15,341 nucleotides of DNA from Bryobacteraceae bacterium (GTDB lineage: Bacteria > Acidobacteriota > Terriglobia > Bryobacterales > Bryobacteraceae), in the NCBI GenBank assembly GCA_947456995.1, contig CANGVB010000014.1:1-15341 (forward strand), given 5' to 3'. A program made the translations under genes and the position numbers. Below, piece by piece: positions 1 to 15,341 of the stretch. The stretch's first letter is position 1. Each line of letters starts with the position of its first letter. The notes under the pieces are model-generated. The model was given only the letters and a program-made list of their open reading frames with translations, was not told where the DNA came from and did no database searches.

Positions 1-2376
1 GCCTGCAAGGCGAGCTTCGTCAGCTCGTCGTCGAGCCCAGATGGACCAAACCTGGCCGTAGCTTTCTTCCTGCTTGCTGGTGAGGTTGCGATAGAGAGAA
101 ATTCGATTCAGGGCTGCGTAGAGTTGGCGCTCTTCGGCCTTGCCGTTGAGCAGGATCCAGGCCTGCTGGATGAGCAAGTCGACCGGTGGATCGACTTTGC
201 GGGAGTCATAAACCTTCAGCGCCATTTCGCCCAGCTTGGCTGCTTCGCCAGCGTTGCCGAGGTCGTTGTGGATGCCAGCGATGAGACTGAGGTGGTCGGG
301 ATCGGCATTCAGCTTTCCAGCGACGAGGGCTGGCATACGGGAGGCCTCGATCAAAGCAGTTTCATTGAGATTGCGGCTCTTGAGCGAGAGAAGCAGACTG
401 CGCCACACGTTGGCTTCGCCGGAGTTTTTGGCGAGGAGTTCGCGGATCAGGCGCTCTGAGTCGGCAGCGCGGCCTTGCTGCATCCAGATGTCGGCGAGTT
501 GAAGTTGAACGTCAACGGAAACCCTGTCGGGGCCATCCATCCGGATCATTTCGGCGAGGAGCTTTTCGGCCTGGTCTGCGTGGCCGAAGCGAGCCTGGAC
601 ATAGGCGGCACTGCGGAGGAAGCCGGGACGCTTGAGTGCAGCCTGATAGAGGTCGGCTGGCATTTTCTCGATTACGCCGAAGGCCGCTTTCTCTTCTTTC
701 TGCTGCAGAAAGGTGGCGATGAGCCCCTCGTATGCGACGAGGTTGTAGGGCTCGGAGCGTATGACGCTCTGGTAAAGCTCAGATGCCTTAGCGAAGTTGC
801 CCTGGTTCAAGTTGGTGCCGGCCACCTGAAGGATGAGCGTATTGGGCATGGCGAGGTTGTTGGCCCGTGAGATGGCCATGGCGCGTTCGACATAGTTGCT
901 TGATTCTTTGCTCTGACCGATTTCGGCGGTGGCGCTGGCCATAAGGCCGAGGAAGTCAGCGGACTTTTGAAGGTCTGTTTGCACCAGCGCTGGAGCGGAT
1001 TGAGCGGCTGAAATTGCGGCTTTGGCCCCTTCGGCCTGATAACGGGCGTTAATCCAGCCGCGCCAGTTGTCGAGGTCGTTCGGTTCGAGTGCGATGAGCT
1101 TCTCGTAGACACTCGCGGCTTCCTTAGCCTTGCCGGACTTCAGATAGACGCCAGCGAGTCCACGTTGGGCCGCGCCGTTTTTAGGGCGAAGCCTGGCTGC
1201 AAACTGGAAGCGCTCGTTGGCTTCATCTACTTTGTCGGACGCCAGCAGACGAGTGCCTTCACGGAGTGCTTTAAAGAAACGTGAGGTTTCAATGGCTTCC
1301 TGAATTGAGGCGACACCCGGTTGGAGCGCCTGAGCCTTTTCCAGGAACTGGAGCGCTGCGCCGAATTCCTCCTGCTTCATGCGAACGAAGCCCATGCCGG
1401 CGAGGGCCCCAGGGCTATTGGGATGTTGCTTGAGGACGGCATCGAATTTCGATTCGGCCAGGAGGGCTTGGCCCTTGTTGAGTTCGTCGAAGGCTGCCTG
1501 TTCTTCAGGGCTGTTTTGTAGGTTGCGGTCTGCACGCTCCGGCATGGCGGGCATGGTTGCGAGAGTACGAGCCAATTCTGTATCAGAGTGTCGTGAGAGA
1601 TAAGCGCGGATGCTCGAAGCCGCTGCGGGGTTGGCCCCTTCCCAGAGGAGCGCCTGACGCCATGCCTGGCGCGCTTTGGCGTATTGGATGTTAGCGGGGG
1701 TGATGGATTCCAGCATCTTGATTCCGGAAAGGCGGGATTCAGGGCGGTAGGTGTAAAGAGTGCCGAGGGACAGCTTGTATTCGACGGCGTTGGGATATTG
1801 CTGCATCAGGGATTGCAGAGCGTTGGTGGCGCGATCCCAACCGCCTGGTGTTGCGGCGTCGGTTTCGTGATACGCAATGGCCCATCCGCCAGCAGGAGGA
1901 TTGCCGCCGAAGACTTCGTTGTAGATGAGCATCGCTTCGCGGGGCTGGCCGTTGCGGGCGAGCTTGCTGGCCTGATCGAGACGCTGGCGTTGGGAATCCA
2001 TGATAACGGTGGATTCCACTTGCTTGATCGCCCCGCTGGAGGGGTTGACCTGCTTGAGCTGGTCCAGCAGACGGGACGATTCATCCACCTTGCCGCGCTG
2101 CTTGGCATAGCGGGCGAGGCCAGCCAGGGCATCGGGCTGGTTGGGTTCGATGAGGAGGAGTTGCTTCCAGGTTTGTGCAGCAAGATCCAGACGGCCGCGA
2201 CCCTCGAGAGAGCGGGCTTTGCTGAGCAGGATGTCTTTCACCGCAGAGACCTGAGGCACAGTAGATACCTGATTGCCGCCGGATTGTGGTGTAGCGGCGG
2301 GAGCGGCAACGGTGGTGAACATCAACGCGAGACAAAGGCTGGCGGTGAGTTTCTTGGTTTGCATGGAGGAGTTCAT
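1..2376 (-). CDS. bcsC: BcsC-like cellulose export protein, TPR region (3' end off the left edge)
   Basis: The minus-strand frame stays open from the ATG at 2376 to base 1 (792 codons, no stop), so the C-terminus is missing. It begins MNSSMQTKK, followed by a hydrophobic stretch and an Ala-rich end (residues ~10-28), a typical Sec signal peptide. The rest is alanine-rich helical tetratricopeptide repeats, e.g. 'LLIEPNQPDALAGLARY' (~75-91) and 'LIALEPNDLDNWRGWINA'. The segment with 'REAMLIYNEVFGGNPP' (~147-162) closely resembles E. coli BcsC ('EEAVASYNKLFNGAPP', from memory). In BcsC family proteins the periplasmic TPR scaffold is followed by an outer-membrane beta-barrel that exports the glucan; that barrel should be encoded left of the window. 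The gene lies 51 bp downstream of bcsAB in the same operon. No good Shine-Dalgarno precedes the ATG, so translation may depend on the upstream gene. An in-frame ATG at 2364 is an alternative start. Identity is firm from homology and context. Confidence 0.92.
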   Translation of the reverse strand, partial: MNSSMQTKKLTASLCLALMFTTVAAPAATPQSGGNQVSTVPQVSAVKDILLSKARSLEGRGRLDLAAQTWKQLLLIEPNQPDALAGLARYAKQRGKVDESSRLLDQLKQVNPSSGAIKQVESTVIMDSQRQRLDQASKLARNGQPREAMLIYNEVFGGNPPAGGWAIAYHETDAATPGGWDRATNALQSLMQQYPNAVEYKLSLGTLYTYRPESRLSGIKMLESITPANIQYAKARQAWRQALLWEGANPAAASSIRAYLSRHSDTELARTLATMPAMPERADRNLQNSPEEQAAFDELNKGQALLAESKFDAVLKQHPNSPGALAGMGFVRMKQEEFGAALQFLEKAQALQPGVASIQEAIETSRFFKALREGTRLLASDKVDEANERFQFAARLRPKNGAAQRGLAGVYLKSGKAKEAASVYEKLIALEPNDLDNWRGWINARYQAEGAKAAISAAQSAPALVQTDLQKSADFLGLMASATAEIGQSKESSNYVERAMAISRANNLAMPNTLILQVAGTNLNQGNFAKASELYQSVIRSEPYNLVAYEGLIATFLQQKEEKAAFGVIEKMPADLYQAALKRPGFLRSAAYVQARFGHADQAEKLLAEMIRMDGPDRVSVDVQLQLADIWMQQGRAADSERLIRELLAKNSGEANVWRSLLLSLKSRNLNETALIEASRMPALVAGKLNADPDHLSLIAGIHNDLGNAGEAAKLGEMALKVYDSRKVDPPVDLLIQQAWILLNGKAEERQLYAALNRISLYRNLTSKQEESYGQVWSIWARRRADEARLAG

Positions 2377-2427
2377 TGTGGTTCTGTGTTGTCGATAGAT
2401 CCAAAGTTCAAATTGAGATTGCTGGCG

Positions 2428-5400
2428 TTAAGAGCGCAGGCGGTGCTGTGTTTGCTGATTGACCCAAACTTCAAGCCTTGAAGCGATCCAGAAACCTGCG
2501 ATCAAGACAAAGAGCGGGATGATCCAGGCATAGCGCCGCACCCAGTATTCAAGAGCCTCTGTCCAGCGCAGCTCGCCGGTGTGAAGAAACGATGTATTCG
2601 CTCGGAAGGAAGTAAAGCGGCCTGCCTGCTCGATGGCAACGGTGCCGAATACATCTTCGTTATAAGCGGATTTGTCGAGGAGGCGGATAAGGGTGGCCGA
2701 GTTGCGAGTGCTCGAAGTGGACAGTGCGATCATCACGCGGGACTCGTCGACGGGAGAAGTGATACCCTCCAGCACTGCTTCGACGGGAGCTTCGCTGCCG
2801 AGGACATCGTTGAGCCGGCGCAGTTCCATGGCTTTGCCGGTACGGATGAAATTCCAGAACCAGTCTAAGGGTGTCTGCTTTTCATTCACACGGGGGATCT
2901 CGCTGTCGAGTTGAACCGGAAGCCGATTCACCCAGCGGCTGAACAAGGGTTGATCCTGGCCGGAGCCGAGAACGAGAAGGTCTTTGCCTGTCATTTTTTC
3001 AACCTGTGAAGAGTCGGCAACGCTGATGCGGTAGCCGGGCATTCCGGTTTGTGCACCGAAGAACGACATGATGTTGAGGTAGAGGCCGATCTGTTCTGGC
3101 GACATCGTTGGAGGAACGATCACCGCAGTGTCGCCGAGATCGGGCATGCGAGTGAAGGGGAAGCCTGCTTTGGCGAAGAGATCGAGGCGAGGTTGTTCGA
3201 CGAAATGAGAGACACCGCGAAGATCAATTTCTGAGTTTCGCTGAATGATCATCTCGGTACTGCGTTCAGCCCCTTCGGCGCCCTGGTAATCGACCTCGAA
3301 GGCGAGGGTGTTTCTTGGATAGAGCTGGGCAACCGACATCTGGATTGTCTCTGAGAAGACACCAGTGAGTTCGGAGGCTTGGAGTTTTCTTTCGGCAACG
3401 GGAGCGCCGTTGAGCTTGATACGGATTCGGGCCGTTGCCTCTTTGGGCAAGCCGTTGAACTTGAGGCCGAGGCGGAGTGGCACACTGACGCGGGAGCCGT
3501 AGTAAAGGTCTGGCGCGAGGCGGAAGTAAAGCCGTGTGGAGCCGTTGTTGTAGATGTGGAGTTGCTCTGACGAAGAAAACTGGTGGAAGGCTGCCGCCCG
3601 GCCGGACTGCAACCAGCGTGGTGCTTCATAAGGGTTGCGTGGCGTGAGTGAAACGTTTTCCAGGGGAACGGATTCTCCACTCAAAGCTTTAGACGAAGCA
3701 AGCATGCGGGCTGCGGCCTGAAGGCGCTCGGGAGATTCGCCGTAGACGACGAGGAGTTTGCCGTAGGGATCATTCGGATTGTCGCGAATCGCTACGCCGG
3801 AACCGGAGAGGGATTGAAAGGTTCCATCTTCGGTGGATCGATTGCCAGAGGCAACGAGCACCACGGCATGTCCTTGAGGAATGGCCCCGACACTAACCGG
3901 AAAGTCGGTGCCGCGAAAATCTGCAAGAGTGCCAAGCCAACTGGCGATGAGGCCGGCGGATTCGAGAAGTTTCGAAGACGGACGTTCGAGGAAGACGAAG
4001 TTTAATCGAAGCGGCCGGTTGGAGGATAAGTCAAAGAGCGGCATGGGGAGCAGGCGAAGATCATTGGCGAAGGGCAGAAGCCGGCCATCAATGCGGAGGC
4101 TGCTGGCGGGATCAATGCTTGTGCGGAGCTGAGCCTTTTGAGAAGCCGAACAGGAAGTGCAGTGGGCTGAGAGAGTGAATGTAAGCGTGTTCTCGCCCAT
4201 GAGCAATTCGGCTGGAAGGCTGACGATCGAAGTGGATGATGCATTGCCGCTGTTGTTGTCTGACTTGAGTGGCACCGAGGCGACGTCACTGCCGTTCAGG
4301 CTTACGGCGATGCTGCCGTCTTCGAGGGTGAGTGAATGAGCGGGCTGGAAGCGGAGCGTGAGCGCCGCATCTGTTGCCACTTTAGTCACCGGGAGTGCGA
4401 AGGAGATAGACGCTACGCCGTCGGTGCCGCGCAGGAGCAAGGGCTGACGGATGCCGAAGAGCTTGAAATCCTGAACATCGCTGAAGGTGCTGGGTGCTTG
4501 TTCGCCCCTTGTGCCACCGGCAAAGACCAACGACTTGGGCTTGGCTTCATACGGAACCTGAGCCCGAACCTGTAGCGAAAACAACGCCAGGAGAGCCGCA
4601 ATCAAGAGAAGAAGTGATGCGGCAGAGCGGCGCGGCTTCAGTCGACCGGCTGGAGGATCCTGCGCTCCAGGCGTGAAGCCGAAGATGGCTTGCGGAACAG
4701 CGAGGAAGCCACGCAAGGCAACTCCCATGATCGTCGCGAAACTGCGGAAGGGACGGTCGATCTCGGCATCGCGCGAGTTGAGCCATGCGTCGCCGCGAGA
4801 GTAAATCACCTGGGCGAGAAATTCATCCTGTTCGAGCGAGAGGCGGCCGAAGGACAGGCGGATGGACTTGCCTTCCACCTCGACAACTACGGCAGGCAAT
4901 GCGGTCTGACTGGCTTTGAGCTCCAGACCCACTTGAACCGAGTCGCCAGGCATGAGGTTCCAACCGGCAGGAGCTTCAATCTGGAGCCCGCCGGTAGAAA
5001 AGTCGATGCTGGACGTGAGTGCTTTGCCGAACTTTACATCCTCGAGGGCTACGGGAAGTTTGACCGGGATTCGCGACGAGCTGCGGAGTTGGCGTTTCTC
5101 GATCGTCACGGCAATGGCCGCACCAAGATTCACCAGATTGAGAGAAGCCCAGGCGATGTTGACGATGATTGTACCGGTCTGGACATCCGGGTTGCCGAGT
5201 TGGCTGACACCCATGGCGATGCCGGCCATGTTCAGGAAGAGCAGAACGATGAAGGGCCGGGAGATGCGCCAGTCGAAGTAGCCACGGTCCATCTGAGTGC
5301 TTTTGGAGGTGACGTTAAACTTGCCCCACTTGGGGTTGATCAGAGCTGCCATGGTGGGGAAGAGGATGTAAGGCGCAAGCACGGTCTCATACACCTCGTT

Positions 5401-6783
5401 CCAGAAGGAGTGACGGAACTTGCCCTGAATGCGGGAGTTTGTGAGTGTGGCGAAGACCAGGTGTGGCACGGCGTAAGAAAGAATCGTGACGACATAGCCG
5501 TACATATTGACGCGGCCAAGCATGAGGTTTACCAGCGGTGCGGTAAGGAAGATAAGTCTGGGAAGCGCGAAGAGGTAATGGACGGTGCTGTTGAAGTAGC
5601 AGAGGCGTTGGGCCAGGGAGAGGCCTTTGCCCAGCAGTGGCAAGTCGATGCGGAGGATTTGAACCATACCGCGGGCCCAGCGAATCCTCTGGCCGATGTG
5701 GTCTGCCACCTTGGCGGTGGCAAGGCCTGCTGCCTGGGGAAGGTTGATGTAGGCTGTGTTCCAACCATTGCGCTGCATGCGAAGGGAGGTGTGTGCGTCT
5801 TCGGTGACGGTTTCGACGGCGATACCGCCGATTTCGTCAAGAGCTGTGCGGCGCATGACGGCACACGAACCGCAGAAGAAGGTAGCGTTCCAGAAGTCGT
5901 TTCCATCCTGAACGAGGCCATAGAAGAGATAACCTTCGTTTGGCACTTTTCGGAAGATGTTGAGGTTGCGTTCAAAGGGGTCTGGCGAATAGAAGAAGTG
6001 CGGGGTCTGCAGCATGGCCAGGTTGGAATCTTCGAGAAACCAGCCCGCCGTCATCTGCAGGAAGGAACGCGTGGGGATGTGATCGCAGTCGAAGATGGTC
6101 ACCAGTTCGGCATCGGTTTGTTGCAGCGCGTTGTTGATGTTTCCTGCTTTGGCGTGGTTGTGTTCGGAACGGACGATGTAGCCTGAACCGCAAGTTATCG
6201 CGAAGTCTCGGAACTCCTGTCGTGTGCCGTCGTCAAGAATGTACACATTGAAGCGATCGGGCGGGTAGTCCATGTTGAGGGCAGCCAGGACGGTAGGCTT
6301 GACGACTTCGAGGGGCTCGTTATAGGTCGGAATGAAGACATCTACCTTGGGCCATGTGTTGAAGTCTGCCGGTAGCGAGGCAGGCTTGCGCTCGAGGATT
6401 TTGAGGCCCTGGAAAAATCCGAGGGCAAGGATGAGTGCGGCGTAGAGCTCGGCACCGAGAAGCAGGAAGACGAAGACGAGATCCCATGTCCAGGCTGCGG
6501 ACCCTTGCATGGAGAGGAAGTTGTAGGTTTCAGAGCAGCGAAACCAAAGATAACGAGCGGTGCAGAACAAACTGCAGAGCATGAGGAAGAGAGTGACTTT
6601 GTAATCCTGAGAGGCGCGGTTGGCCCAGAGAGCGGCCAAGAGCAGAACACCGCTGATCAGCAACTGGGGTTGCCAGTCCAGAGGAATCGTTGCAAGAACG
6701 CCTAGTCCGGCAATTGCCAGAACGAGCAAAAGAAAAGTGCCAACGGAAAGTCCGATGGGCTTAGAGATAGTGGGGGGATTCAA
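2428..6783 (-). CDS. bcsAB: Fused cellulose synthase BcsA-BcsB (UDP-glucose beta-1,4-glucan synthase with PilZ domain plus periplasmic subunit)
   Basis: The 1451-residue protein joins catalytic and periplasmic subunits that are usually separate, as in AcsAB of Komagataeibacter. Residues ~10-125 hold the first membrane helices. The GT2 domain (~140-400) has the processive synthase motifs: D184-D185 (LDDG), D232-C-D234, FFCGS (302-306), T327-E328-D329 and the Q365-R-I-R-W369 acceptor-site motif. More helices span ~400-560. A PilZ domain follows with R567-SSS-R571 and D594-F-S596-TG-G599, the complete c-di-GMP binding signature. A hydrophobic segment at 720-742 ending in 'VRAQ' acts as internal signal/anchor and starts the BcsB part (~745-1417), which ends in a helix at 1418-1434. 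BcsA polymerises glucose from UDP-glucose and extrudes the chain; BcsB guides it through the periplasm. The start is TTG, chosen because AGGAG lies 7 nt upstream. Lies between bcsQ and bcsC. Confidence 0.97.
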   Translation of the reverse strand: MNPPTISKPIGLSVGTFLLLVLAIAGLGVLATIPLDWQPQLLISGVLLLAALWANRASQDYKVTLFLMLCSLFCTARYLWFRCSETYNFLSMQGSAAWTWDLVFVFLLLGAELYAALILALGFFQGLKILERKPASLPADFNTWPKVDVFIPTYNEPLEVVKPTVLAALNMDYPPDRFNVYILDDGTRQEFRDFAITCGSGYIVRSEHNHAKAGNINNALQQTDAELVTIFDCDHIPTRSFLQMTAGWFLEDSNLAMLQTPHFFYSPDPFERNLNIFRKVPNEGYLFYGLVQDGNDFWNATFFCGSCAVMRRTALDEIGGIAVETVTEDAHTSLRMQRNGWNTAYINLPQAAGLATAKVADHIGQRIRWARGMVQILRIDLPLLGKGLSLAQRLCYFNSTVHYLFALPRLIFLTAPLVNLMLGRVNMYGYVVTILSYAVPHLVFATLTNSRIQGKFRHSFWNEVYETVLAPYILFPTMAALINPKWGKFNVTSKSTQMDRGYFDWRISRPFIVLLFLNMAGIAMGVSQLGNPDVQTGTIIVNIAWASLNLVNLGAAIAVTIEKRQLRSSSRIPVKLPVALEDVKFGKALTSSIDFSTGGLQIEAPAGWNLMPGDSVQVGLELKASQTALPAVVVEVEGKSIRLSFGRLSLEQDEFLAQVIYSRGDAWLNSRDAEIDRPFRSFATIMGVALRGFLAVPQAIFGFTPGAQDPPAGRLKPRRSAASLLLLIAALLALFSLQVRAQVPYEAKPKSLVFAGGTRGEQAPSTFSDVQDFKLFGIRQPLLLRGTDGVASISFALPVTKVATDAALTLRFQPAHSLTLEDGSIAVSLNGSDVASVPLKSDNNSGNASSTSIVSLPAELLMGENTLTFTLSAHCTSCSASQKAQLRTSIDPASSLRIDGRLLPFANDLRLLPMPLFDLSSNRPLRLNFVFLERPSSKLLESAGLIASWLGTLADFRGTDFPVSVGAIPQGHAVVLVASGNRSTEDGTFQSLSGSGVAIRDNPNDPYGKLLVVYGESPERLQAAARMLASSKALSGESVPLENVSLTPRNPYEAPRWLQSGRAAAFHQFSSSEQLHIYNNGSTRLYFRLAPDLYYGSRVSVPLRLGLKFNGLPKEATARIRIKLNGAPVAERKLQASELTGVFSETIQMSVAQLYPRNTLAFEVDYQGAEGAERSTEMIIQRNSEIDLRGVSHFVEQPRLDLFAKAGFPFTRMPDLGDTAVIVPPTMSPEQIGLYLNIMSFFGAQTGMPGYRISVADSSQVEKMTGKDLLVLGSGQDQPLFSRWVNRLPVQLDSEIPRVNEKQTPLDWFWNFIRTGKAMELRRLNDVLGSEAPVEAVLEGITSPVDESRVMIALSTSSTRNSATLIRLLDKSAYNEDVFGTVAIEQAGRFTSFRANTSFLHTGELRWTEALEYWVRRYAWIIPLFVLIAGFWIASRLEVWVNQQTQHRLRS

Positions 6784-6790
6784 ACGAATG

Positions 6791-6795
6791 CTCCT
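6791..6795 (-). promoter_or_regulatory. Shine-Dalgarno site fixing the TTG start of bcsAB
   Basis: On the minus strand AGGAG is followed by a 7-nt spacer (CATTCGT) and then TTG at 6783-6781. This spacing is ideal, and there is no comparably placed ATG or GTG. The site supports a TTG start for the fused synthase. Confidence 0.7.
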
Positions 6796-6842
6796 GATTC
6801 ACCTTGAAAGGTCATGTTGTGGCAGAAAGTGGTTTTGGGCAA

Positions 6843-6867
6843 TGCAGCCTAGTCGCCAGTGGCTGCA
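6843..6867 (-). repeat. Perfect 7-bp inverted repeat over the bcsQ stop codon
   Basis: TGCAGCC (6843-6849) and GGCTGCA (6861-6867) are perfect reverse complements around an 11-nt loop, and the TAG stop of bcsQ falls at the arm/loop boundary. In the mRNA this would fold as a stem-loop between bcsQ and bcsAB. No U-tract follows, so it does not look like an intrinsic terminator. It may be an intercistronic stability or translation-coupling element, or chance. Confidence 0.4.
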
Positions 6868-8057
6868 CTTCGGGGATAGGCCGCAGATTCGGTGGATTCA
6901 GAACGAGTCTGCACCCATTCGGCCAGGCGATGGAAGTCTTCGGAGACGCCGCTGTTGGGAGCGTAGTCCACGATGGTTTGGCCTTCTGCCAGAGCCTCGC
7001 TCACCTCGTCACTGCGTCGGATTACGATCGGTAGCAGCCGGGATTTGAGTTCGTCGCCGAGCCATTTGCGCAAGTCTGTGTGAAGACTTACGTTGTGGTC
7101 GAACTTGGTGAGAATGAATTGGGGTTCAATGCGCAAGCCGGTCTTCAACGACAGGTTGTGAAAGACATCAAGGATGGGACGCACCCGAAGTGTGGACCGT
7201 ACTTCGGGCAATAGAGGAATGAGGCAGATAGATTTGCCGGAAAGCCTGGTTAACAGATTCATCGACATGTTAGCCCAGATGTCAACCATCAGGTACTCGC
7301 ATTCGTCGCTCACCTCATTGAGGCCATCGCTAACCCATTCTTCCGTGTTGGAATGGCCGGCAGTGCTTCCGAAAAAGGGAATCATGCCTTCCTGATGTGC
7401 CTTGGGTGTAATGAGGTGAACCGGGGCCGAGTTGGTGCCTCGGGAGACAAAGAAAGTAGAACAACCGGTTCTTGCTCTCTTTGCGCCGAAGTGCATGGGA
7501 ATCAAGGACTGGTTTGAATTCTCAACAATGCCGACAGGTGATTTATGAGAAGAAAGAATTCTTGCTACGGTGGCGGCTATCGTCGTGTTGCCAACACCAC
7601 CGGAACTGGGGAAGAGCAGAATATTCGTGGTTTGGTGCAGTTGTGAGCTGCTGTCCTGGAGATTCGCTTCATCTAGTGCGGATTGAAGGCCTTGCCAGCG
7701 CGCTCCACGGTTCATTGGCTTGCGCACCGCAAAGCGATTGATCCTGGCGGTGATTTCGACTGCTTTGCTGTGTGTGGGGCTAATGTGACTAACTGGCTCG
7801 GAGGATATTGGCGTAGGGAAGGGAACTTGCGAGGCGAATTCGGAAGCCGGAGTCGTGGCGGATGCAAGAACAGGTTCCTGAATCGAGGATGAATGACTTA
7901 CCTGGCTTTCAAGAACACTTGATTGCGCCTGCTCATTCTCAGGAGTCTGTGAATTCGCGGTAGCCGTGCGAGTTCTTGCAAAGTGCAGATAGTTGGTGGT
8001 GCTGATTCCAGCAACGTGACACAGATCGGTAATGTCGTTTTCAAAAGTATTCAACAC
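6849..8057 (-). CDS. bcsQ: BcsQ/YhjQ-like MinD-family ATPase of cellulose synthesis, with BcsR-like N-terminus
   Basis: A 402-residue protein. Residues ~144-385 form a ParA/MinD-type (SIMIBI) domain with the P-loop-like SSGGVGNTT (151-159) and a switch region 'LMVDIW' (256-261). The lysines of a normal deviant Walker A motif (KGGVGKTT) are absent; E. coli BcsQ also lacks the P-loop lysine. The C-terminal part 'SRLLPIVIRRSDEVSEALAE' followed by '...VDYAPNS' (~339-369) matches the BcsQ pattern well. BcsQ is needed for assembly and polar placement of the cellulose machinery in enterobacteria. Residues 5-27 (ENDITDLCHVAGI...NYLHFAR) resemble the short partner BcsR/BcsP, and a Ser/Pro-rich, probably disordered linker (~30-110) joins the two parts. 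Start is GTG at 8057, just after an in-frame TAA, with GGAG about 12 nt upstream; TTG at 8054 is possible. First gene of the bcs operon, 64 bp before bcsAB. Confidence 0.85.
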   Translation of the reverse strand: MLNTFENDITDLCHVAGISTTNYLHFARTRTATANSQTPENEQAQSSVLESQVSHSSSIQEPVLASATTPASEFASQVPFPTPISSEPVSHISPTHSKAVEITARINRFAVRKPMNRGARWQGLQSALDEANLQDSSSQLHQTTNILLFPSSGGVGNTTIAATVARILSSHKSPVGIVENSNQSLIPMHFGAKRARTGCSTFFVSRGTNSAPVHLITPKAHQEGMIPFFGSTAGHSNTEEWVSDGLNEVSDECEYLMVDIWANMSMNLLTRLSGKSICLIPLLPEVRSTLRVRPILDVFHNLSLKTGLRIEPQFILTKFDHNVSLHTDLRKWLGDELKSRLLPIVIRRSDEVSEALAEGQTIVDYAPNSGVSEDFHRLAEWVQTRSESTESAAYPRSAATGD

Positions 8058-8449: not shown

Positions 8450-10948
8450 ATGTACTGCTGCATGAAAACGTTTGTAAATCATCTATTTGTTGTATTCCTG
8501 TCTCTTGTTTTGCGAAGTGCTGTATTTGGCCAACAAGAGACTGGACTTATGTTGTTTCCTGCGGACGCCAGCAGTCGATTTCGACTGGATGGAATGGATC
8601 CGCGAGAATTTACAATAAGGCGCGTATCAGACCCGAGATTTTCGGTGATTTGGAATGTAAAGACGCCATTTCCAGCAGCATTGAACCCTTATGACTTTCG
8701 GTTGGTAGGCACGCCTGTGGCGGCGATTCAGAAAGGAGATGTATTAGTTGCAACGTTTTGGATGAGGACTATCTCTGCGGTATATCTCCAAGGACATACT
8801 CGTTTCGTCGTTGAGAGAGGCAGGCCTCCTTATCCGAAATCTGCAGAGTGGTTTCTGGCAAGTGGACCGGAATGGAAGCAGTTTCAGATTCCATTTACAG
8901 CAGCCGAGAGTGATGAGGCGTCTGGATATAGTGCGCAATTTTGGGTGTCATCCGGACCGCAAGAAATTGAAATTGCAGGCTTTCAAATTCGTAATTACGG
9001 ACCGGGAGTGAGGTATAGCAGCCTTGGGTTGAAGGACTATCCCTATGTGAATGCCGAGGCCAATGCATCTTGGCGGTCTGCGGCGTTGGCCAGAATTGAC
9101 AAGTTACGCAAAGGTGAAGTGACGATTGTCTTGCGAGATGCCGAAGGAAGACCTCTGGCCAACCGAAAAGTTCGGGCGAAGATGCTGAGGCATGCCTTCG
9201 GATTCGGGTCGGCGGTGGATGCCCAGACGCTGCTCAGCAATTCCAATGATGGCGAACGATATCGCGACTTTGTGTTTTCAAACTTCAATCGGGTAACGCT
9301 TGAGAATGATTTGAAGTGGACGGAGTGGGAGCGGAACCGATCTGCGGCCTTGCAGGCAATTGATTTGCTTCGCTCCAGAGGAATCACGAAGTTGCGTGGA
9401 CATACATTGGTGTGGCCTGGCTGGGAGTATTTGCCAGAACGATTGAGGGGCTTGCAATCCAATCCGAATGAGTTGCGAAGGGCTGTTGATGCGCACATTG
9501 CCGATATCACGGCCGCAACCAGGGGGAAGCTTACGGAATGGGACGTATTGAACGAGCCTTACACGAATCGAGATCTGCAGCGGGTGCTTGGTAATGCGGA
9601 GATGGCGCGGTGGTTCCAATTGGCTCAAGGCGGGGATTCTGAGGCGGCTCGCTTTATCAACGACTTCAATATTGTAGAGGCTGGCGGAAACGACATTCCG
9701 CACATTGCGGGCTTGAAGGAGATTCTGAATTCAATTCAGCAGGGCAACGGGCCGTGGAATGGAATTGGCATCCAGGGGCACTTTGATCAAAATCTGACAG
9801 ATCCGGAAAAAGTATTGTCGATTCTCGACGACCTGTCGAGTTACCGCAAACCGATTCAGATTACAGAATTTGATGTCAACGTTGCGGATGAAGCGTTGCA
9901 GGCTGCCTATACGAGGGATTTCATGACGGCTGCCTTTAGCCATCCGTCCGTCGAGGGGATTACGATTTGGGGATTCTGGGAAGGGCGTATCTTTAACCGG
10001 ACCAATGCAATGGTGCGGCAGGATTGGACGACGAAGGCGAACCATGCAGTCTGGCGGCAGTTGGTCTACAAAGACTGGTGGACTGACGTGGAGCTTCGGA
10101 CAAATGCCGATGGGATTGCGCGGGTTCGCGGATTTGCCGGAGATTATGAGGTGATTGTCGAAGACGGTGGCAGGCAGACGGTGCTGCCTTATCGGATGGA
10201 GGCCGGCAAGATTGGGTATTTGTTTCAGGGTAAAAGAGATCAGGTTTCGATTCCGGCCGGTGGCATTGTGAACGCGGCAAGTTTCCAGCCTGGGCCTGTT
10301 GCACCCGGTCAGGCCGTGACCATTTTTGGAAGCGGGCATGGATACGAAGAGATTCAAATTGCAGCCAGGGGAGAGAACAATGCGCTGCCGGCATTGGTGG
10401 GGGAGACTCGAGTCTTCTTTGATGGTGTTGCCGCACCGATGATTTACAGTGCCAGGCAGCAAGTGAGTGCCGTTGTGCCGGAAAGTGTTTCGGGCTTGAC
10501 CAAAGTGAAAGTAGAGTTTCTGGGGCAGGTGAGCAACGAAGTAACGCTGCCAGTGGCTGCTGCTCGACCGGGCATCTTCACTTCTGCAAGCGGTACCGGG
10601 CAGGCCGTTGTTTTGAACAACGACTCGGCTGGATCGTTCAACTCTGCCGATAGCCCCGCCAGCCGGGGAAGCGTGGTGTCGTTTTTTTTGACGGGAGAAG
10701 GGAAGACGACGCCCGAGATCGGAGCAGGGCTATTTCCTCAGGCTCCGTTTCCAAGACCAACGCAAGCCGCGCAGGTGTTTTTTGGTGGAGCGCAGGGGGT
10801 TGTGGAGTTTATTGGGCGCATTTTCCCGGGAGTGGTGCAAGTGAATGCGCGGATTCCTGGAAACGCCGAAACAGGCAACCAGGTTTCGTTAGTGGCCAGA
10901 ATCGGGGGATTTAGTTCGCAGGCTGGAGCGACGATTGCGATTCGTTAG
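8450..10948 (+). CDS. Secreted GH10 glycanase (xylanase-type) with N-terminal carbohydrate-binding-like domain and TIGR03437 C-terminal domain
   Basis: An 832-residue protein with a signal peptide (~5-28, ending 'VFGQQ'). Residues ~50-185 look like a beta-jelly-roll carbohydrate-binding module of the CBM4/9/22 type. After a short beta segment (~222-250, 'RHAFGFGSA') comes the GH10 barrel (~250-545) with GHTLVW (317-322), the acid/base glutamate E369 in WDVLNEP and the nucleophile E473 in ITEFDV. GH10 enzymes are retaining endo-beta-1,4-xylanases, and some also act on mixed or cellulosic glucans. Residues ~603-831 are a TIGR03437 domain of unknown role, typical of Solibacter-like acidobacteria. 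The start could be ATG 8450 or ATG 8462; the latter gives a more standard signal peptide (MKTF...), and neither has a strong Shine-Dalgarno. Divergent from the bcs operon. It may process the exported polymer or degrade plant hemicellulose; substrate is unproven. Confidence 0.93.
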   Translation: MYCCMKTFVNHLFVVFLSLVLRSAVFGQQETGLMLFPADASSRFRLDGMDPREFTIRRVSDPRFSVIWNVKTPFPAALNPYDFRLVGTPVAAIQKGDVLVATFWMRTISAVYLQGHTRFVVERGRPPYPKSAEWFLASGPEWKQFQIPFTAAESDEASGYSAQFWVSSGPQEIEIAGFQIRNYGPGVRYSSLGLKDYPYVNAEANASWRSAALARIDKLRKGEVTIVLRDAEGRPLANRKVRAKMLRHAFGFGSAVDAQTLLSNSNDGERYRDFVFSNFNRVTLENDLKWTEWERNRSAALQAIDLLRSRGITKLRGHTLVWPGWEYLPERLRGLQSNPNELRRAVDAHIADITAATRGKLTEWDVLNEPYTNRDLQRVLGNAEMARWFQLAQGGDSEAARFINDFNIVEAGGNDIPHIAGLKEILNSIQQGNGPWNGIGIQGHFDQNLTDPEKVLSILDDLSSYRKPIQITEFDVNVADEALQAAYTRDFMTAAFSHPSVEGITIWGFWEGRIFNRTNAMVRQDWTTKANHAVWRQLVYKDWWTDVELRTNADGIARVRGFAGDYEVIVEDGGRQTVLPYRMEAGKIGYLFQGKRDQVSIPAGGIVNAASFQPGPVAPGQAVTIFGSGHGYEEIQIAARGENNALPALVGETRVFFDGVAAPMIYSARQQVSAVVPESVSGLTKVKVEFLGQVSNEVTLPVAAARPGIFTSASGTGQAVVLNNDSAGSFNSADSPASRGSVVSFFLTGEGKTTPEIGAGLFPQAPFPRPTQAAQVFFGGAQGVVEFIGRIFPGVVQVNARIPGNAETGNQVSLVARIGGFSSQAGATIAIR

Positions 10949-11207
10949 GAGAGGAAGTGGTGGGCGCGCAGGGATTCGAAGCAAACGGTTTTATTCAGTT
11001 TCAACCCTTGGAGCCGAGTCTTCGGGTCTGTAGCTTGTGTCAGATGTTGTTTTGACAGAGTTTTGAAAGGGAGCCTCAGCGCTTTGACCTCCAAAGAGTA
11101 AACCTGTTTCGAAACGATACAGCTCAAGACGAGACAGCCTGTCCAGATGGAATGAAATGGAATGTTCCGATCCATGTAGAATCAAGGGTTTCGACTGTCT
11201 GATCGCC
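10949..11207. other. Intergenic region upstream of the NO-signalling operon, with palindromes
   Basis: No gene is seen here. No hairpin plus U-tract follows the GH10 stop, so no intrinsic terminator can be called. The right part holds three compact symmetric elements: the perfect palindrome GTTTCGAAAC (11106-11115), GACAG-C-CTGTC (11133-11143), and the direct repeat ATGGAATG at 11147-11154 and 11157-11164 (exactly 10 bp apart). The last is followed by TCCAT at 11171-11175, inverted to ATGGA at 11157. They sit about 60-130 bp upstream of the predicted sigma54 start point, where enhancer sites for NtrC-type activators usually lie. Confidence 0.45.
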
Positions 11208-11224
11208 TTGGCGATAGACTTGCA
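11208..11224 (+). promoter_or_regulatory. Candidate sigma54 (-24/-12) promoter of the regulator/H-NOX operon
   Basis: TTGGC and TTGCA are placed so that GG (11210-11211) and GC (11222-11223) are separated by exactly 10 bp. This gives 10 of 13 specified positions of the YTGGCACGRNNNTTGCW consensus, including all of the -12 block. Taking the C of GC as -12, transcription would start near 11235. The first gene downstream encodes a sigma54 activator, which fits autoregulation. A sigma54 start at 11235 would leave almost no leader before ATG 11237, and would favour a start further in (see that gene). Confidence 0.6.
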
Positions 11225-11236
11225 ACTAAAAGAAGG

Positions 11237-12652
11237 ATGCAAGTGGGGAGAGAATTGGAAAGCCTGATATTCCTGGTTGACGATGATGAGAATTTGCGTG
11301 CGGTTGTCGAGCGCTGGCTGCGGAAGGATGGCTATGACGTGTCTTGCCTTTCTGGTGGTGAAGAGTGCCTGAAGGCTCTGAGTGAAGAAGAGCCTGAAGC
11401 AATATGTCTCGACATGAATATGCCGGGCCTGAGCGGCATCGAAACCTTGGAACGAATCCGGGAGCGTTATCCTGCTTTACCGGTTGTGGTGTTGACCGCT
11501 GACGAGACCGCAACTACGGCGGTAAGTGCAATGAAGCTCGGGGCCCATGACTACCTGACAAAGCCGCTGGATGCGATCAAATTGTTGACCACTCTCAGGA
11601 ATGCCATTGCCCACGGTAGATTGTCGATGCGTGTGACGCAGCTTGAGCGTGAGGTTGAAGGGCGCGGCTATCCGGGCATTGCCGGCAATTCCAATGCGAT
11701 GAAGAGTGTGTTTCGCCAACTCGACAGGCTGGCAGTGAGCGATGTTTCGGTGTTGATCCATGGGGAAAGCGGAACCGGTAAGGAATTGATTGCTCGAGCG
11801 ATCCACCAGTCCAGTAGCCGGAGCCGGGGGCCGTTTATCGCTGTCAACTCGGCAGCAATCCCGGAGAGTTTACTCGAGTCAGAGCTTTTCGGACACGAGA
11901 AGGGGTCGTTCACGGGAGCTGCGAATCGTCGCATTGGCCGCTTTGAAGAGGCGAACAAGGGCACACTTTTCCTCGATGAAATTGGAGAATTGTCCCTCCC
12001 GGTACAGGCCAAACTGCTGCGGGTATTGCAGGAGCGGAAGATACAACGTGTCGGTGGCTCGGCCCTGATTCATTCTGACTTTCGATTGATTACGGCTACA
12101 CACCGCAATTTGACCGAAGATGTGAAGGCGGGTAAATTTCGCGAAGATCTCTTTTTCCGTTTGGCTGTTTTTGAGTTGGAACTGCCTCCACTGCGCCGTA
12201 GAAAAGAAGACATCCCGGTGCTTGCGCAGCTCTTTATCAATGGGAACAAGGACACGGCTGGTAGCCGGGTGAATGGTGTCTCTCCTGCGGCTTTGAGCAT
12301 GATGCTGAAGCATGAGTGGCCGGGAAACGTTCGGGAGTTGCAGAATGTGATGCAACGGGCGCTGGTTGTGGCCAATGGCGAAATGATTGAACCAGAAGAT
12401 CTTCCGGAGAGGATGCGGCTGGGGGCGAACGTGTCTGCCTTGAAAGCTGCAAGTGCGGAAGTTGAGGAAGATGGGGGCACGCTTGAAGACGCCTCAAAGA
12501 GGCTCTTGCTGGCAGCACTTGAAAAGCATGAAGGCAACGCGTCGGCGGCGATGAGGGAGTTGAAAATTGGCCGGACCCGCTTTTACAGAATGCTCAAGAA
12601 GTTTGGTTTTGAAGACAAGATGGATGAGATCCGCCAGTCTGGCAGCAAGTAA
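11237..12652 (+). CDS. NtrC-type sigma54-dependent response regulator (REC-AAA+-Fis HTH)
   Basis: A 471-residue protein. The receiver domain (~10-125) has the acidic DDD cluster (15-17), phosphoacceptor D59 in CLDMNMPG, T87 and K109. The AAA+ domain (~145-380) has Walker A GESGTGKE (176-183), the sigma54 contact loop GSFTGA (223-228; the usual form is GAFTGA), Walker B LFLDEIGEL (244-252) and the 'FREDLFFRL' and 'WPGNVRELQN' motifs. A Fis-type helix-turn-helix lies at ~417-455. Phosphorylation should trigger oligomerisation on an upstream enhancer and ATP-driven opening of sigma54 promoters. ATG 11237 directly abuts AGAAGG, so it is a poor start. GTG 11243 has that site 6 nt away, and TTG 11255 (MESLIFLVDDDEN) has GGGGAG just upstream and would suit a transcript starting at 11235. 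First gene of a three-gene operon; its partner is probably the sensor encoded two genes downstream. Confidence 0.94.
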   Translation: MQVGRELESLIFLVDDDENLRAVVERWLRKDGYDVSCLSGGEECLKALSEEEPEAICLDMNMPGLSGIETLERIRERYPALPVVVLTADETATTAVSAMKLGAHDYLTKPLDAIKLLTTLRNAIAHGRLSMRVTQLEREVEGRGYPGIAGNSNAMKSVFRQLDRLAVSDVSVLIHGESGTGKELIARAIHQSSSRSRGPFIAVNSAAIPESLLESELFGHEKGSFTGAANRRIGRFEEANKGTLFLDEIGELSLPVQAKLLRVLQERKIQRVGGSALIHSDFRLITATHRNLTEDVKAGKFREDLFFRLAVFELELPPLRRRKEDIPVLAQLFINGNKDTAGSRVNGVSPAALSMMLKHEWPGNVRELQNVMQRALVVANGEMIEPEDLPERMRLGANVSALKAASAEVEEDGGTLEDASKRLLLAALEKHEGNASAAMRELKIGRTRFYRMLKKFGFEDKMDEIRQSGSK

Positions 12653-12663
12653 GGAGTCAAGAA

Positions 12664-13206
12664 ATGTACGGAATGGTGAATCGGGCAATCGAAGAAATGG
12701 TGAGTTCCGGCTATGGAGAAGAGGTCTGGGAAAAGATCAAGGAGCGGGCGGGAGTGGACGTCGAGGTCTTTATCAGTTCTGAAGGGTACTCAGATCAGAT
12801 CACTTACGGTCTTGTTGGTGCGGCCAGCGAGGTGCTGGGGCTGCCTCAGGAAAAAGTGATGGAAGCTTTTGGGGAGTATTGGATTCTTGAAACTACCAAG
12901 AGAGGCTATAGTGATTTGATGGCTTCGGGCGGGGCGACACTCAAAGAGTTCTTGCTGAACCTTCCGAACTTCCATGCCCGCTTGAGTATGATCTTTCCGC
13001 ATCTCTCTCCGCCGGAGTTCGCTGTGAGCCATGTTGGAGAAAGGTCTCTTAGGCTCCACTACATGTCCAACCGGGCGGGACTTACGTCTTTCATGAGGGG
13101 CTTGATTCTTGGCTTGGGGAAGATGTTTGAAAGTCCAGTTGAAGTAGAGCTAGTTGCGGCGAAAGCCTCCGGAGCCGACCACGACGAATTCCTCGTCCAG
13201 TGGTAG
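12664..13206 (+). CDS. Stand-alone H-NOX (HNOB) heme-based nitric oxide sensor
   Basis: A 180-residue protein of the usual length for a single H-NOX domain, beginning MYGMVNRAIEEMV, the family's typical N-terminus. The proximal heme ligand is predicted to be H104 in LPNFHARL. The heme-propionate motif YxSxR is complete (Y133, S135, R137). The conserved Pro after the proximal helix is present (SPPEF, 115-119). The helix after YxSxR (138-153, AGLTSFMRGL...) has no tyrosine; O2-binding H-NOX proteins carry a distal Tyr there, so this one should bind NO and exclude O2. In bacteria H-NOX proteins act in trans on a neighbouring kinase or cyclase. AAGGAG (12651-12656) overlaps the stop of the regulator gene and lies 7 nt from the ATG, which shows tight co-transcription. 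The sensor gene starts 13 bp after its stop. Confidence 0.95.
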   Translation: MYGMVNRAIEEMVSSGYGEEVWEKIKERAGVDVEVFISSEGYSDQITYGLVGAASEVLGLPQEKVMEAFGEYWILETTKRGYSDLMASGGATLKEFLLNLPNFHARLSMIFPHLSPPEFAVSHVGERSLRLHYMSNRAGLTSFMRGLILGLGKMFESPVEVELVAAKASGADHDEFLVQW

Positions 13207-13219
13207 GGAGCTGGAAACC

Positions 13220-15341
13220 ATGCGTGAGTCGTCGGAACCTGTATTGACCTCAGAGCAACTGCGAACGTTGTTTCCGTTCCACCTCGCCTTTGACGAATTG
13301 TTGTCCATTACAAGCATCGGTAGGTCGTTGCATAAAATCTGTCCGGATTTGGTGTTGGGTGCTAAGGTGGCGGATTTCTTTGAACTCGATCGGCCCAGGG
13401 TCAGGTTGGAGTTTCAGGAGCTAGTGAGTCGAATCGAATTGCTCTTTCTGCTGAGTATGCGTGGAAGCAGCATCCGGCTTAGAGGCCAAATGATGTTGTT
13501 GCCCGAGCAAGGGCAGATGATCTACCTTTGTTCCCCATGGCTGCCGCAGGCAGGAGCGTTGAAATCTCTGGGGCTCACGCTCGAAGACTTTCCGATCCAC
13601 GATCCAATGCCCGAACTGGTTCAGGTGGTGCAATCTCAGAATCTGGCGATGGCGGATATGAAGCTCTTGGCAGACAAGCTTCGCGCCAGGGGGCAAGAGC
13701 TGAAGGCAACAAACCAGCAGCTACAGGTGAGCGAAAAGAATGCCAAGCAGCTGGCTTTGATCGCAGCCCGCACTGAGAATTCGGTGATCATCACGGACGC
13801 GGTAGGAAAGGTGCAATGGGTAAACGAGAGCTTTGAGCGGCTGACTGGCTACACTCTTGAAGAAGCGATGGGGAAGACTCCTGGGTCCTTTCTGCAAGGC
13901 CTCCAGTCTGATCGTGATGTCATCGCCTTGATGAGTGCGAAGGTGAAGTCCGGGGAGGGGTTTCACGCCGAGCTTCTGAATTACAACAAAAGCGGCCACA
14001 AATACTGGGTTTCCATCGAGGTGCAGCCAATTCGTGATGAGACAGGGGCTGTTACGAACTTTATGGCAATCGAGAGTGACATTACGATTCGCAAGGAGTG
14101 GGAGCAGCGCCGCAGCCTTGAATACTCCGTCACGCGGGTTCTTGCCGAATCGATTCGTCTAGATTTTGCGTTGGAGAGAATTCTCAGCTTGATCTGCACG
14201 GCACTTGGCTATCAGGCGAGCTGCTTCTGGCAAGTAGACGAATCGGAAAGTTGTCTGGAATCTATCGGTATGACGTTGAGGCCAAACATGAGAGGGAGTC
14301 AGTTTGAGATTCTTTCCCGGGAGCTTCGATTGCAATCCGGGGAGGAAATTCCTGGACGTGTCTGGCTTGAAAACAGGAGCATATGGATTGCAAACCTGGC
14401 AGATCTAAGCGATTCGCCGAGAGCTCCTCATGCCCTGGAAGTTGGAATCCAAAGCGTGTTTGCTTTCCCATTGCGCGATGGCGACAAGGTGAATGGGGTG
14501 ATCGAACTCTTCGCTAACGCCAAGGAGCCGCCAACAGCGGGATGGATGGAGAGTTTGGTTGGTCTTGGGAGACAAATTCAGCAATTCGTAGAAAAACAGG
14601 AAGCCGACCACGACCGTGCGAAGGCCTTATCGCTACTGGATTCCACCATTGAATCTACAACGGAGGGTATCCTCGTTACGGATTTGCGAGGCAGAGCACT
14701 TCGTGCAAACCATCGCTGGATGGAACTCTTTGAGATTCCTCAAGAACTGCGAAATTTCTCCAACCAGAAAGCACTTCTTGAATGGGTGAATCCCCTGTTC
14801 GTAAATCCGCTGGAGCGCATCGCGGCAAGGCAGAGACTCTTTGACTCCCCGGAGGAAACGAGGCGGGATACCGGTGTATTGACCAACGGGACCATCCTTG
14901 AGATTCAATCTACGCCGCATCGAATGGGCAGTAAGTTGGTAGGTCGCGTGTGGACTTACCGGAATATCACAGATGCCTATCATTCGCAGCGAGAGCGGGA
15001 AAAGCTGTTGGCCGCCCTCAATGCCACGCTCGAAGCCACCACTGACGGTATCCTGGTTGCGGATCTGAACCAGCAAATCATTTCCTTCAATCAACGATTC
15101 CTGGCTTTGTTCGGTATCTCCCAGGAATTCAGCGACAGAAGAGAAGCTGGCGAAATGCGGAGAGTGGTTCTGAATCAGTTGGTCAACCCTGACGAATTCG
15201 AATCGAGGATCCTTTGGCTGTATTCTCACCCGGGTGAGTCCAGTCATGACGTGATTCACTTTCTCGATGGCCGTATTTATGAGAGAGACTCGCATCCGCA
15301 AAGAATTGGGGAAGATATCATCGGGCGGGTATGGAGTTACC
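13220..15341 (+). CDS. HNOBA-coiled coil-PAS-GAF-PAS-PAS sensor protein (3' end off the right edge)
   Basis: The frame is open from ATG 13220 to the window end (707 codons, no stop). A GGGAG site lies 9 nt upstream. Residues ~15-135 are an HNOBA domain: FPFHLAFD (18-25), IRLRGQMMLLPE (85-96), YLCSPW (102-107) and 'GLTLEDFPIHD' (118-128) line up with the equivalent region of animal soluble guanylyl cyclase. A coiled coil (~137-183) leads to a PAS domain (~183-290) that resembles LOV but has GKTPGSFLQG where LOV has the photoactive cysteine. A GAF domain (~300-460) and two related PAS domains (~470-583 and ~598-707, sharing 'T(E/D)GILV.DL' and 'GRVW.Y') follow. The protein has no membrane segment, so it is probably cytoplasmic. 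Output is not visible: a histidine kinase is likely given the response regulator in the operon, but GGDEF/EAL is possible. HNOBA should dock the adjacent H-NOX. Confidence 0.9.
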   Translation, partial: MRESSEPVLTSEQLRTLFPFHLAFDELLSITSIGRSLHKICPDLVLGAKVADFFELDRPRVRLEFQELVSRIELLFLLSMRGSSIRLRGQMMLLPEQGQMIYLCSPWLPQAGALKSLGLTLEDFPIHDPMPELVQVVQSQNLAMADMKLLADKLRARGQELKATNQQLQVSEKNAKQLALIAARTENSVIITDAVGKVQWVNESFERLTGYTLEEAMGKTPGSFLQGLQSDRDVIALMSAKVKSGEGFHAELLNYNKSGHKYWVSIEVQPIRDETGAVTNFMAIESDITIRKEWEQRRSLEYSVTRVLAESIRLDFALERILSLICTALGYQASCFWQVDESESCLESIGMTLRPNMRGSQFEILSRELRLQSGEEIPGRVWLENRSIWIANLADLSDSPRAPHALEVGIQSVFAFPLRDGDKVNGVIELFANAKEPPTAGWMESLVGLGRQIQQFVEKQEADHDRAKALSLLDSTIESTTEGILVTDLRGRALRANHRWMELFEIPQELRNFSNQKALLEWVNPLFVNPLERIAARQRLFDSPEETRRDTGVLTNGTILEIQSTPHRMGSKLVGRVWTYRNITDAYHSQREREKLLAALNATLEATTDGILVADLNQQIISFNQRFLALFGISQEFSDRREAGEMRRVVLNQLVNPDEFESRILWLYSHPGESSHDVIHFLDGRIYERDSHPQRIGEDIIGRVWSY

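Follow-up and report, generated by a model that had tools for sequence, protein, structure and literature searches.

The window analysed here is a complete contig of 15,341 nt (CANGVB010000014.1, below C14) from a Bryobacteraceae assembly of the phylum Acidobacteriota, which comprises 634 contigs and 4.0 Mb and is 79% complete. Towards its right end it carries a three-gene operon for an NtrC-type response regulator (RR), a stand-alone H-NOX protein and a sensor that begins with an HNOBA domain and very probably is a histidine kinase. We propose that nitric oxide (NO), acting through an H-NOX phosphorelay, controls the sigma54-dependent expression of this operon and of a Wzx/Wzy-type exopolysaccharide cluster, and we place the probability of this reading at about 0.6. 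Its basis is the observed gene order, domain content and conservation of the operon, the motifs and the polysaccharide linkage in relatives; from these we infer NO binding, contact between H-NOX and HNOBA, phosphotransfer, DNA binding and the sign of the response. Soils and waters are rich in Acidobacteriota, whose responses to NO are, to our knowledge, little known. If the reading is correct, it describes a compact predicted circuit from sensor to promoter with named DNA sites, in which the modules of the animal NO receptor (H-NOX plus HNOBA) govern transcription and not cGMP, and which is a parallel in a distant phylum to the Vibrio symbiosis-polysaccharide circuit.

The operon and its probable hybrid kinase

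The features of the locus are the following.

11105-11121, no strand assigned: near-palindromic enhancer-like element of the type TGTTTCG-N3-CGNNACA, proposed RR site, recognised by motif recurrence
11208-11224, + strand: candidate sigma54-type -24/-12 site TTGGCGATAGACTTGCA, GG-N10-GC, with 10/13 consensus positions
11237-12652, + strand: NtrC-type response regulator with REC, sigma54-interacting AAA+ and Fis-type helix-turn-helix domains (Pfam, motifs, relatives)
12651-12656, + strand: Shine-Dalgarno-like AAGGAG overlapping the RR stop codon (sequence)
12664-13206, + strand: stand-alone, Cys-free H-NOX (Pfam HNOB, 7-sequence alignment, PDB sequence match)
13206-13210, + strand: Shine-Dalgarno-like GGGAG overlapping the H-NOX stop codon (sequence)
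13220-15341, + strand: 5' part (707 residues) of a very probable hybrid histidine kinase, HNOBA-PAS-GAF-PAS-PAS, which runs off the contig end (Pfam, relative at locus L088)

The three genes follow each other on the forward strand in the order RR, H-NOX and sensor, with gaps of 11 and 13 bp. A preliminary description of the window had reported this tight packing with a Shine-Dalgarno sequence over a stop codon, and open reading frames and sequence confirm it; Pfam likewise supports the NtrC-type activator, the single-domain H-NOX and the HNOBA-led sensor named there. For the RR, Pfam detects Response_reg (E 1.8e-29), Sigma54_activat (1.3e-71) and HTH_8 (7.8e-07). The protein has the Walker A motif GESGTGKE and a GSFTGA loop, which is GAFTGA with Ser for Ala, a variant present in four of the nine regulators inspected when the one of the window is counted. 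Its start is uncertain: ATG 11237 gives the longest frame, GTG 11243 matches the lengths of relatives, and TTG 11255 has a purine run of its own upstream. NorR is a direct NO-sensing sigma54 activator with its own NO-sensing GAF domain in place of REC. The RR scores below the cut-off of the NorR model (342.2 vs 476 bits), and Pfam places a REC domain at its N-terminus and finds no GAF domain in it. Assignments as the PEP-CTERM response regulator PrsR (TIGR02915, 404.6 vs a cut-off of 502.6 bits) and as LuxO (NF041946, 364.9 vs a cut-off of 800 bits) were rejected.

The H-NOX protein matches PF07700 with 165.3 bits (curated cut-off 25.5; HNOB E 1.4e-48). Residues H104, P117, Y133, S135 and R137 are conserved in the 7-sequence alignment; we take H104 to be the proximal His and Y133-x-S135-x-R137 to provide the YxSxR haem contacts. 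The solved structures nearest by sequence are Nostoc Alr2278 (3.6e-59) and then soluble guanylate cyclase (sGC) beta-1 (2.7e-28). Phe143 is the equivalent of Nostoc Met144, and Tyr is absent at this position, which presumably has a role in ligand choice.

The sensor starts at ATG 13220, 13 bp past H-NOX, and Pfam orders its domains as HNOBA (9.9e-33), PAS, GAF, PAS_7 and PAS. No cyclase catalytic domain is found by Pfam in the visible 707 residues, and the output of the relatives is a kinase. An AlphaFold2 model of the HNOBA domain (179 residues, 10-row alignment) has a mean local confidence score (pLDDT) of 82.8 and a predicted TM score (pTM) of 0.66. Its best structural match is sGC beta-1 (E 4.8e-11, TM by query 0.66), and it also matches the PAS domain of a Nostoc punctiforme histidine kinase, 2p08.

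The preliminary description had suggested reading past the right edge; since contig C14 stops inside the sensor gene, the remainder was looked for in relatives and elsewhere in the source assembly. Handles used from here on denote sampled genomes (G; G000 is the source assembly), loci (L) and contigs (C). The nearest named relative, L088 of Bryobacter sp. (JALHNH010000001.1, genome G543), carries the same three genes with 90% identity for RR, 85% for H-NOX and 72% for the sensor over the shared part. Its sensor of 1488 residues contains HNOBA, PAS, GAF and PAS-type domains followed by HisKA, HATPase and REC in Pfam. It also has a GHNWKGTG motif at the place where L019, L021, L023, L090, L097 and L160 have a Pfam Hpt domain; Pfam makes no Hpt call in L088 at E 0.001. 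Searching the source assembly with the C-terminal half of the L088 sensor gives contig C630 as best match, with 70% identity across residues 319-748 of the query. C630 holds the end of an HATPase, REC and the GHNWKGTG Hpt motif, after which a convergent flippase-like gene follows as in L088, and it is probably the 3' end of the sensor of the window. Because REC, Hpt motif and flippase-like gene stand on C630 as they do in L088, the kinase of the window very probably ends in REC-Hpt. The whole kinase in L088 and the REC and Hpt motif on C630 together point to phosphotransfer as the output of the sensor, in a His-Asp-His-Asp relay. The preliminary description had expected a two-component system of sensor and NtrC-type regulator. 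The histidine kinase anatomy it presumed is present in L088 and on C630, whereas the simple pair gives way to a predicted four-step phosphorelay.

Contig C552 was also considered as the missing end and rejected, as it is 62% identical to the kinase of G055 and overlaps weakly with the sensor of the window (30% over the matched piece). Positions 1-1227 of C552 (L018) contain the 3' end of another HNOBA-type kinase gene, one that lacks REC-Hpt and whose H-NOX partner was not found in the incomplete source assembly.

Recurrence of the gene trio and its polysaccharide neighbourhood

Conservation was followed with PF07700 in 150 genomes of the family (11 with a match, the source genome included) and in 396 genomes of the phylum (28 with a match), and in the best 80 of 249 named loci, which are ranked by similarity to the query and hence biased. 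The 12 H-NOX loci of the family include 6 with a complete REC-sigma54 gene directly upstream and HNOBA downstream. In G147 the last 110 RR residues lie at a contig edge, and counting this genome the trio is present in 7 of the 11 H-NOX genomes. The order recurs at further named Acidobacteriota loci, for example L088, L090, L091, L097, L109 and L137, with a wider gap in L060 from another family of the same class, and also in Bacteroidota (L160) and Verrucomicrobiota (L167). Among the best 80 named loci, HNOBA is present at 71 and the complete trio at 12. In the phylum sample, 29 loci were fetched, of which 28 matched our own H-NOX profile; with a rule of 400 bp to the neighbour, HNOBA is found downstream in 5/28 and a REC-sigma54 gene upstream in 0/28. 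L060 narrowly fails this upstream rule. A search of plasmids gave 17 records, whose H-NOX proteins are merely 21-30% identical. Thus the output is very probably phosphotransfer-related and the three-gene order is conserved in relatives, the two points on which the preliminary description had staked its proposal.

In a tree of 35 sigma54 proteins, 13 RRs of Acidobacteriota trios, L060 included, group with a support of 87/95 (96/93 for a core of 9 rows). The trio RRs of Bacteroidota and Verrucomicrobiota are distant, and the tree needs 7 label changes vs a shuffled mean of 12.1. Because of this distance, the pairing of RR, H-NOX and kinase may have arisen more than once. Other arrangements were seen as well. 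In L027/L089 (Bryobacteraceae RE-18aug17-11), an H-NOX 77% identical to that of the window is preceded by about 98 RR residues, and an HNOBA kinase was not found nearby; this looks like a decayed operon. L064 (G195), L067 (G153) and L070 (G505), from genomes of about 2 Mb, have two tandem stand-alone H-NOX genes near REC, histidine kinase and divergent NtrC-type genes, without HNOBA.

Upstream of the trio, gene content differs between the window and L088, whereas the downstream side recurs among relatives. It contains a cluster with a flippase-like gene, several glycosyltransferases, a Wza/SLBB export protein, a tyrosine-autokinase-like protein and FkbM, and further a hexapeptide acyltransferase, a Wzy_C protein, transferases of the WecG and EpsZ types, an EpsE-like gene and a STAS protein. 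In most of the relatives examined the trio adjoins this Wzx/Wzy-type cluster, namely in G543, G078, G544, G545, G015 and G142 and in part in G058 and G147; in G015 the RR starts 9 bp past the flippase-like gene. A Wzy gene is present in 10 of the 150 family genomes. It is found in all six trio genomes besides the source (G015, G041, G058, G078, G142 and G147) vs 4/143 of the remaining genomes (p 1.5e-8, with kinship ignored), and is absent from G055, G070, G113 and G135, the four genomes that have an H-NOX but lack the trio. The incomplete source assembly has no Wzy match, and the flippase end is the sole part of the polysaccharide cluster recovered from it. G124 and G076 have like polysaccharide clusters and no H-NOX.

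The left part of the window (minus strand 1-8057 and plus strand 8450-10948) includes a BcsQ-like gene and a GH10 glycoside hydrolase. The BcsQ-like gene is followed by one for a 1451-residue protein, by eye a fusion of the cellulose synthase parts BcsA and BcsB, and by a BcsC-like gene rich in repeats, with the GH10 gene adjacent.

Candidate sigma54 promoters and a shared enhancer-like motif

The candidate promoter at 11208-11224 lies 12 nt upstream of the earliest candidate start codon of the RR. A scan of the whole window with up to 2 mismatches gives 5 sites vs a shuffle mean of 8.5, which is not above chance, and the site is credible only because of its position, its conservation and the enhancer-like motif. 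With a tighter pattern, 14 matches are obtained in the source assembly, this site among them. Over 11 genomes the tighter pattern has 126 matches vs 75 with a spacer one base shorter, so that many single matches must be due to chance; in G041 and G142, matches with the control spacer even outnumber those with the real one.

Similar sites precede the RR in G078, G544 and G545, and a weaker one in G543. In several relatives, sigma54-like sites also stand before the FkbM, EpsE-like, Wza and STAS genes, many of them 11-15 nt ahead of the start codon. Counting sites with at least 11/13 consensus positions along the polysaccharide strand in four genomes gives 4, 3, 3 and 4 with the right spacer vs 0-3 with other spacers. 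A sigma54-like site 121 bp before a glycosyltransferase, seen in four genomes and at the equivalent position in G015, falls within the preceding gene; it may reflect coding conservation and was set aside as an argument, and it is still included in the counts. Sigma54 messages that are nearly leaderless may be the norm in this lineage. In the source assembly, other loci (L214-L226) also have sigma54-like sites 11-15 nt before start codons; one of the 14 matches to the tighter pattern precedes a gene that is flgB-like by eye, which fits the use of sigma54 by flagella.

The proposed RR site TGTTTCGNNNC occurs once in the window, at 11105-11121. The same motif precedes the RR in G078, G544 and G545, in tandem in G142 and with one mismatch in G543. 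It is also present upstream of sigma54-like sites of polysaccharide genes in relatives, mostly at 55-125 bp from the promoter. In 318 kb of trio and polysaccharide regions, the motif lies at most 250 bp upstream of 28/149 sites with the right spacer vs 19/907 with nine wrong spacers; the corresponding p of 1e-13 assumes independence, which does not hold. In 140 kb of three genomes with an unlinked polysaccharide cluster (G124, G076 and G041), the motif accompanies 0/41 sigma54-like sites. G068, where Wzy alone was found, the distant G034 (Wzy 34-35%) and the C230 piece of G147 belong to neither the linked nor the unlinked set. Within 300 bp of the other sigma54-like sites of the source assembly, the motif is found at 0/13.

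A combined pattern of enhancer and promoter has a single match in the source assembly, the RR promoter. It matches in 39 of the 150 family genomes, mostly once and probably by chance. The only match of G015 lies before FkbM, and three of the five G078 matches fall in the trio and polysaccharide region.

A further element, TTTTCAAT/ATTGAAAA, lies nearer to the promoters than the enhancer motif. In G058 (L021, 12350-12604), motif and sigma54-like site precede a divergent gene, about 450 codons long, for a membrane protein that by eye is PAP2-like; the gene adjoins the extended trio operon.

Proposed circuit, alternatives and known systems

H-NOX and HNOBA domains interact with each other within guanylate cyclase. 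In the circuit we propose, NO would bind the stand-alone H-NOX, which would act in trans on the kinase at its HNOBA end, the two forming a split receptor like that of guanylate cyclase. Phosphate would pass from the kinase His to the Asp of its own REC, on to the His of its own Hpt and finally to the REC Asp of the RR. The phosphorylated RR would bind the TGTTTCG-type enhancer that lies ahead of sigma54 promoters and, together with the sigma54 form of RNA polymerase, turn on its own operon and the Wzx/Wzy-type exopolysaccharide cluster. As NO-bound H-NOX inhibits the kinase in Vibrio, the most likely effect by analogy is that the NO-bound form reduces kinase activity here and with it polysaccharide expression. 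A fuller version, to which we give slightly less than even odds, would be a self-contained NO-to-polysaccharide circuit that evolved separately from the syp wiring of Vibrio. It would combine a split receptor, a four-step relay, an autoregulating sigma54 activator, a shared enhancer and near-leaderless promoters with start codons 11-15 nt past the -12 element.

Several observations weigh against the proposed control of operon and polysaccharide cluster. The source assembly, 79% complete, has no rpoN, which is present in 11/11 other genomes tested. About 340 residues between C14 and C630 fall into an unassembled gap, and the HisKA region would lie within it. The RR start codon is so near to the -12 element that a very short leader remains. 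A complete upstream regulator gene stands at merely 6/12 family H-NOX loci, and in G041 trio and polysaccharide cluster are on separate contigs. The 28 motif-bearing sites are not independent because G078, G544 and G545 are near kin, divergent promoters can share one copy, and the motif definition drew on the same loci. The combined pattern matches in 38 genomes besides the source and has zero matches in the trio genomes G041, G142 and G147. The motif was not seen before the RR in L019/G041, L097, L060, L109, L137 and G015, where the RR stands behind the flippase-like gene, and in G058 it occurs before the RR far upstream only. In 8.7 kb of polysaccharide genes on C230 of G147, there is no strong sigma54-like site, and the only motif copy is intragenic. 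In G142, the motif copies on the Wza side have no site of at least 10/13 within 250 bp, and the one paired site beside the RR faces away from it.

Part of this evidence would also agree with a real relay whose RR targets other genes, the shared enhancer belonging to a different sigma54 activator and the polysaccharide link being one of neighbourhood. Binding of the motif by the RR is predicted from sequence, polysaccharide clusters exist in G124 and G076 where H-NOX is absent, and in G041 and G147, which carry both trio and polysaccharide genes, the promoters lack the motif as far as seen. We consider this rather unlikely, as in several genomes the motif precedes both the RR operon and polysaccharide genes, and the three unlinked clusters that were scored showed no copy at their sigma54-like sites.

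The kinase could instead serve mainly another partner, such as a cyclic di-GMP regulator, with the NtrC-type gene as a bystander. In G055, of the same genus, an H-NOX/HNOBA kinase without REC-Hpt adjoins a REC protein that has a GGDEF-like region with a signature degenerate by eye, and on C552 the source assembly has the end of a second kinase of this type. That kinase type is a different paralogue, to which C552 belongs with its 62% identity, while RR, H-NOX and kinase of the trio are kept together across several genera and the Acidobacteriota trio RRs form one group (13 rows, 87/95), which makes the bystander role improbable. The REC/GGDEF-like protein of G055 is encoded at 10230-12299 of L022, divergent from the H-NOX operon.

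That the H-NOX senses oxygen or redox state and not NO is improbable: some H-NOX proteins do bind O2 and ligand binding is not readable from sequence with certainty, but the protein is nearest to Nostoc H-NOX and then to sGC beta-1, with Phe143 at the Met144 position and no Tyr there.

Returning to NO control of the operon and the polysaccharide cluster, several known systems share parts of the proposed wiring. Compared with sGC beta-1, the window proteins have the H-NOX sequence and the HNOBA (PAS plus helix) fold in common, whereas here they are two separate proteins with a predicted histidine kinase output and without a cyclase domain. Nostoc provides the closest solved H-NOX by sequence, Alr2278, and the kinase PAS of Nostoc punctiforme (PDB 2p04/2p08) is a solved HNOBA-fold kinase domain.

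In the open-licence PMC literature, we found no paper containing both 'H-NOX' and 'Acidobacteri' and no description of an operon that combines an HNOBA kinase with a sigma54 regulator. A term search of the text available for a 2022 H-NOX review (PMC8738867) gave no occurrence of 'sigma', 'NtrC' or 'HNOBA'. In Myxococcus xanthus, the NtrC-like regulator EpsI/Nla24 is encoded in the eps locus, is needed for polysaccharide and binds cyclic di-GMP, according to the accessible part of PMC4877007. Both it and the RR of the window are NtrC-like with a polysaccharide link, which for the RR is predicted, and the same part of that paper does not mention an H-NOX/HNOBA kinase.

The closest parallels are found in Vibrio. 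SypG is a sigma54-type activator, and NCBIfam describes LuxO as a sigma54-dependent regulator. In V. parahaemolyticus/harveyi, H-NOX and HqsK signal through LuxU to LuxO in a His-Asp-His relay, and NO-bound H-NOX inhibits the kinase, as given in the sections of PMC6759604 available to us. Unlike in the window, the output of the HqsK system is described there as quorum sensing and its Hpt protein is separate. In V. fischeri, HnoX and HahK signal through SypF and LuxU to SypG with polysaccharide as output, as far as the available text of PMC12369376 describes it. Another paper, PMC10162802, has two sigma54 enhancer-binding proteins in its title and contains the name SypG 235 times. The statement of the preliminary description that coupling of H-NOX to a sigma54 activator is not a characterised arrangement was therefore too strong, since HnoX/HahK-SypG (PMC12369376) and HqsK-LuxU-LuxO (PMC6759604) are published, on the portions of both papers at hand. 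V. fischeri and the window share an operon of H-NOX and kinase and, in the window by prediction, a relay to the transcription factor of a polysaccharide locus. In V. fischeri the regulator and the relay partners are encoded elsewhere, in the account available from PMC12369376, whereas the window has regulator, H-NOX and an HNOBA-type kinase with a probable Hpt-like end in one operon, in another phylum. The wiring of H-NOX-governed kinases to sigma54-type regulators is thus already known from Vibrio, and what appears new here, against the open-licence papers searched, is that the parts are brought into one operon, together with a predicted regulon.

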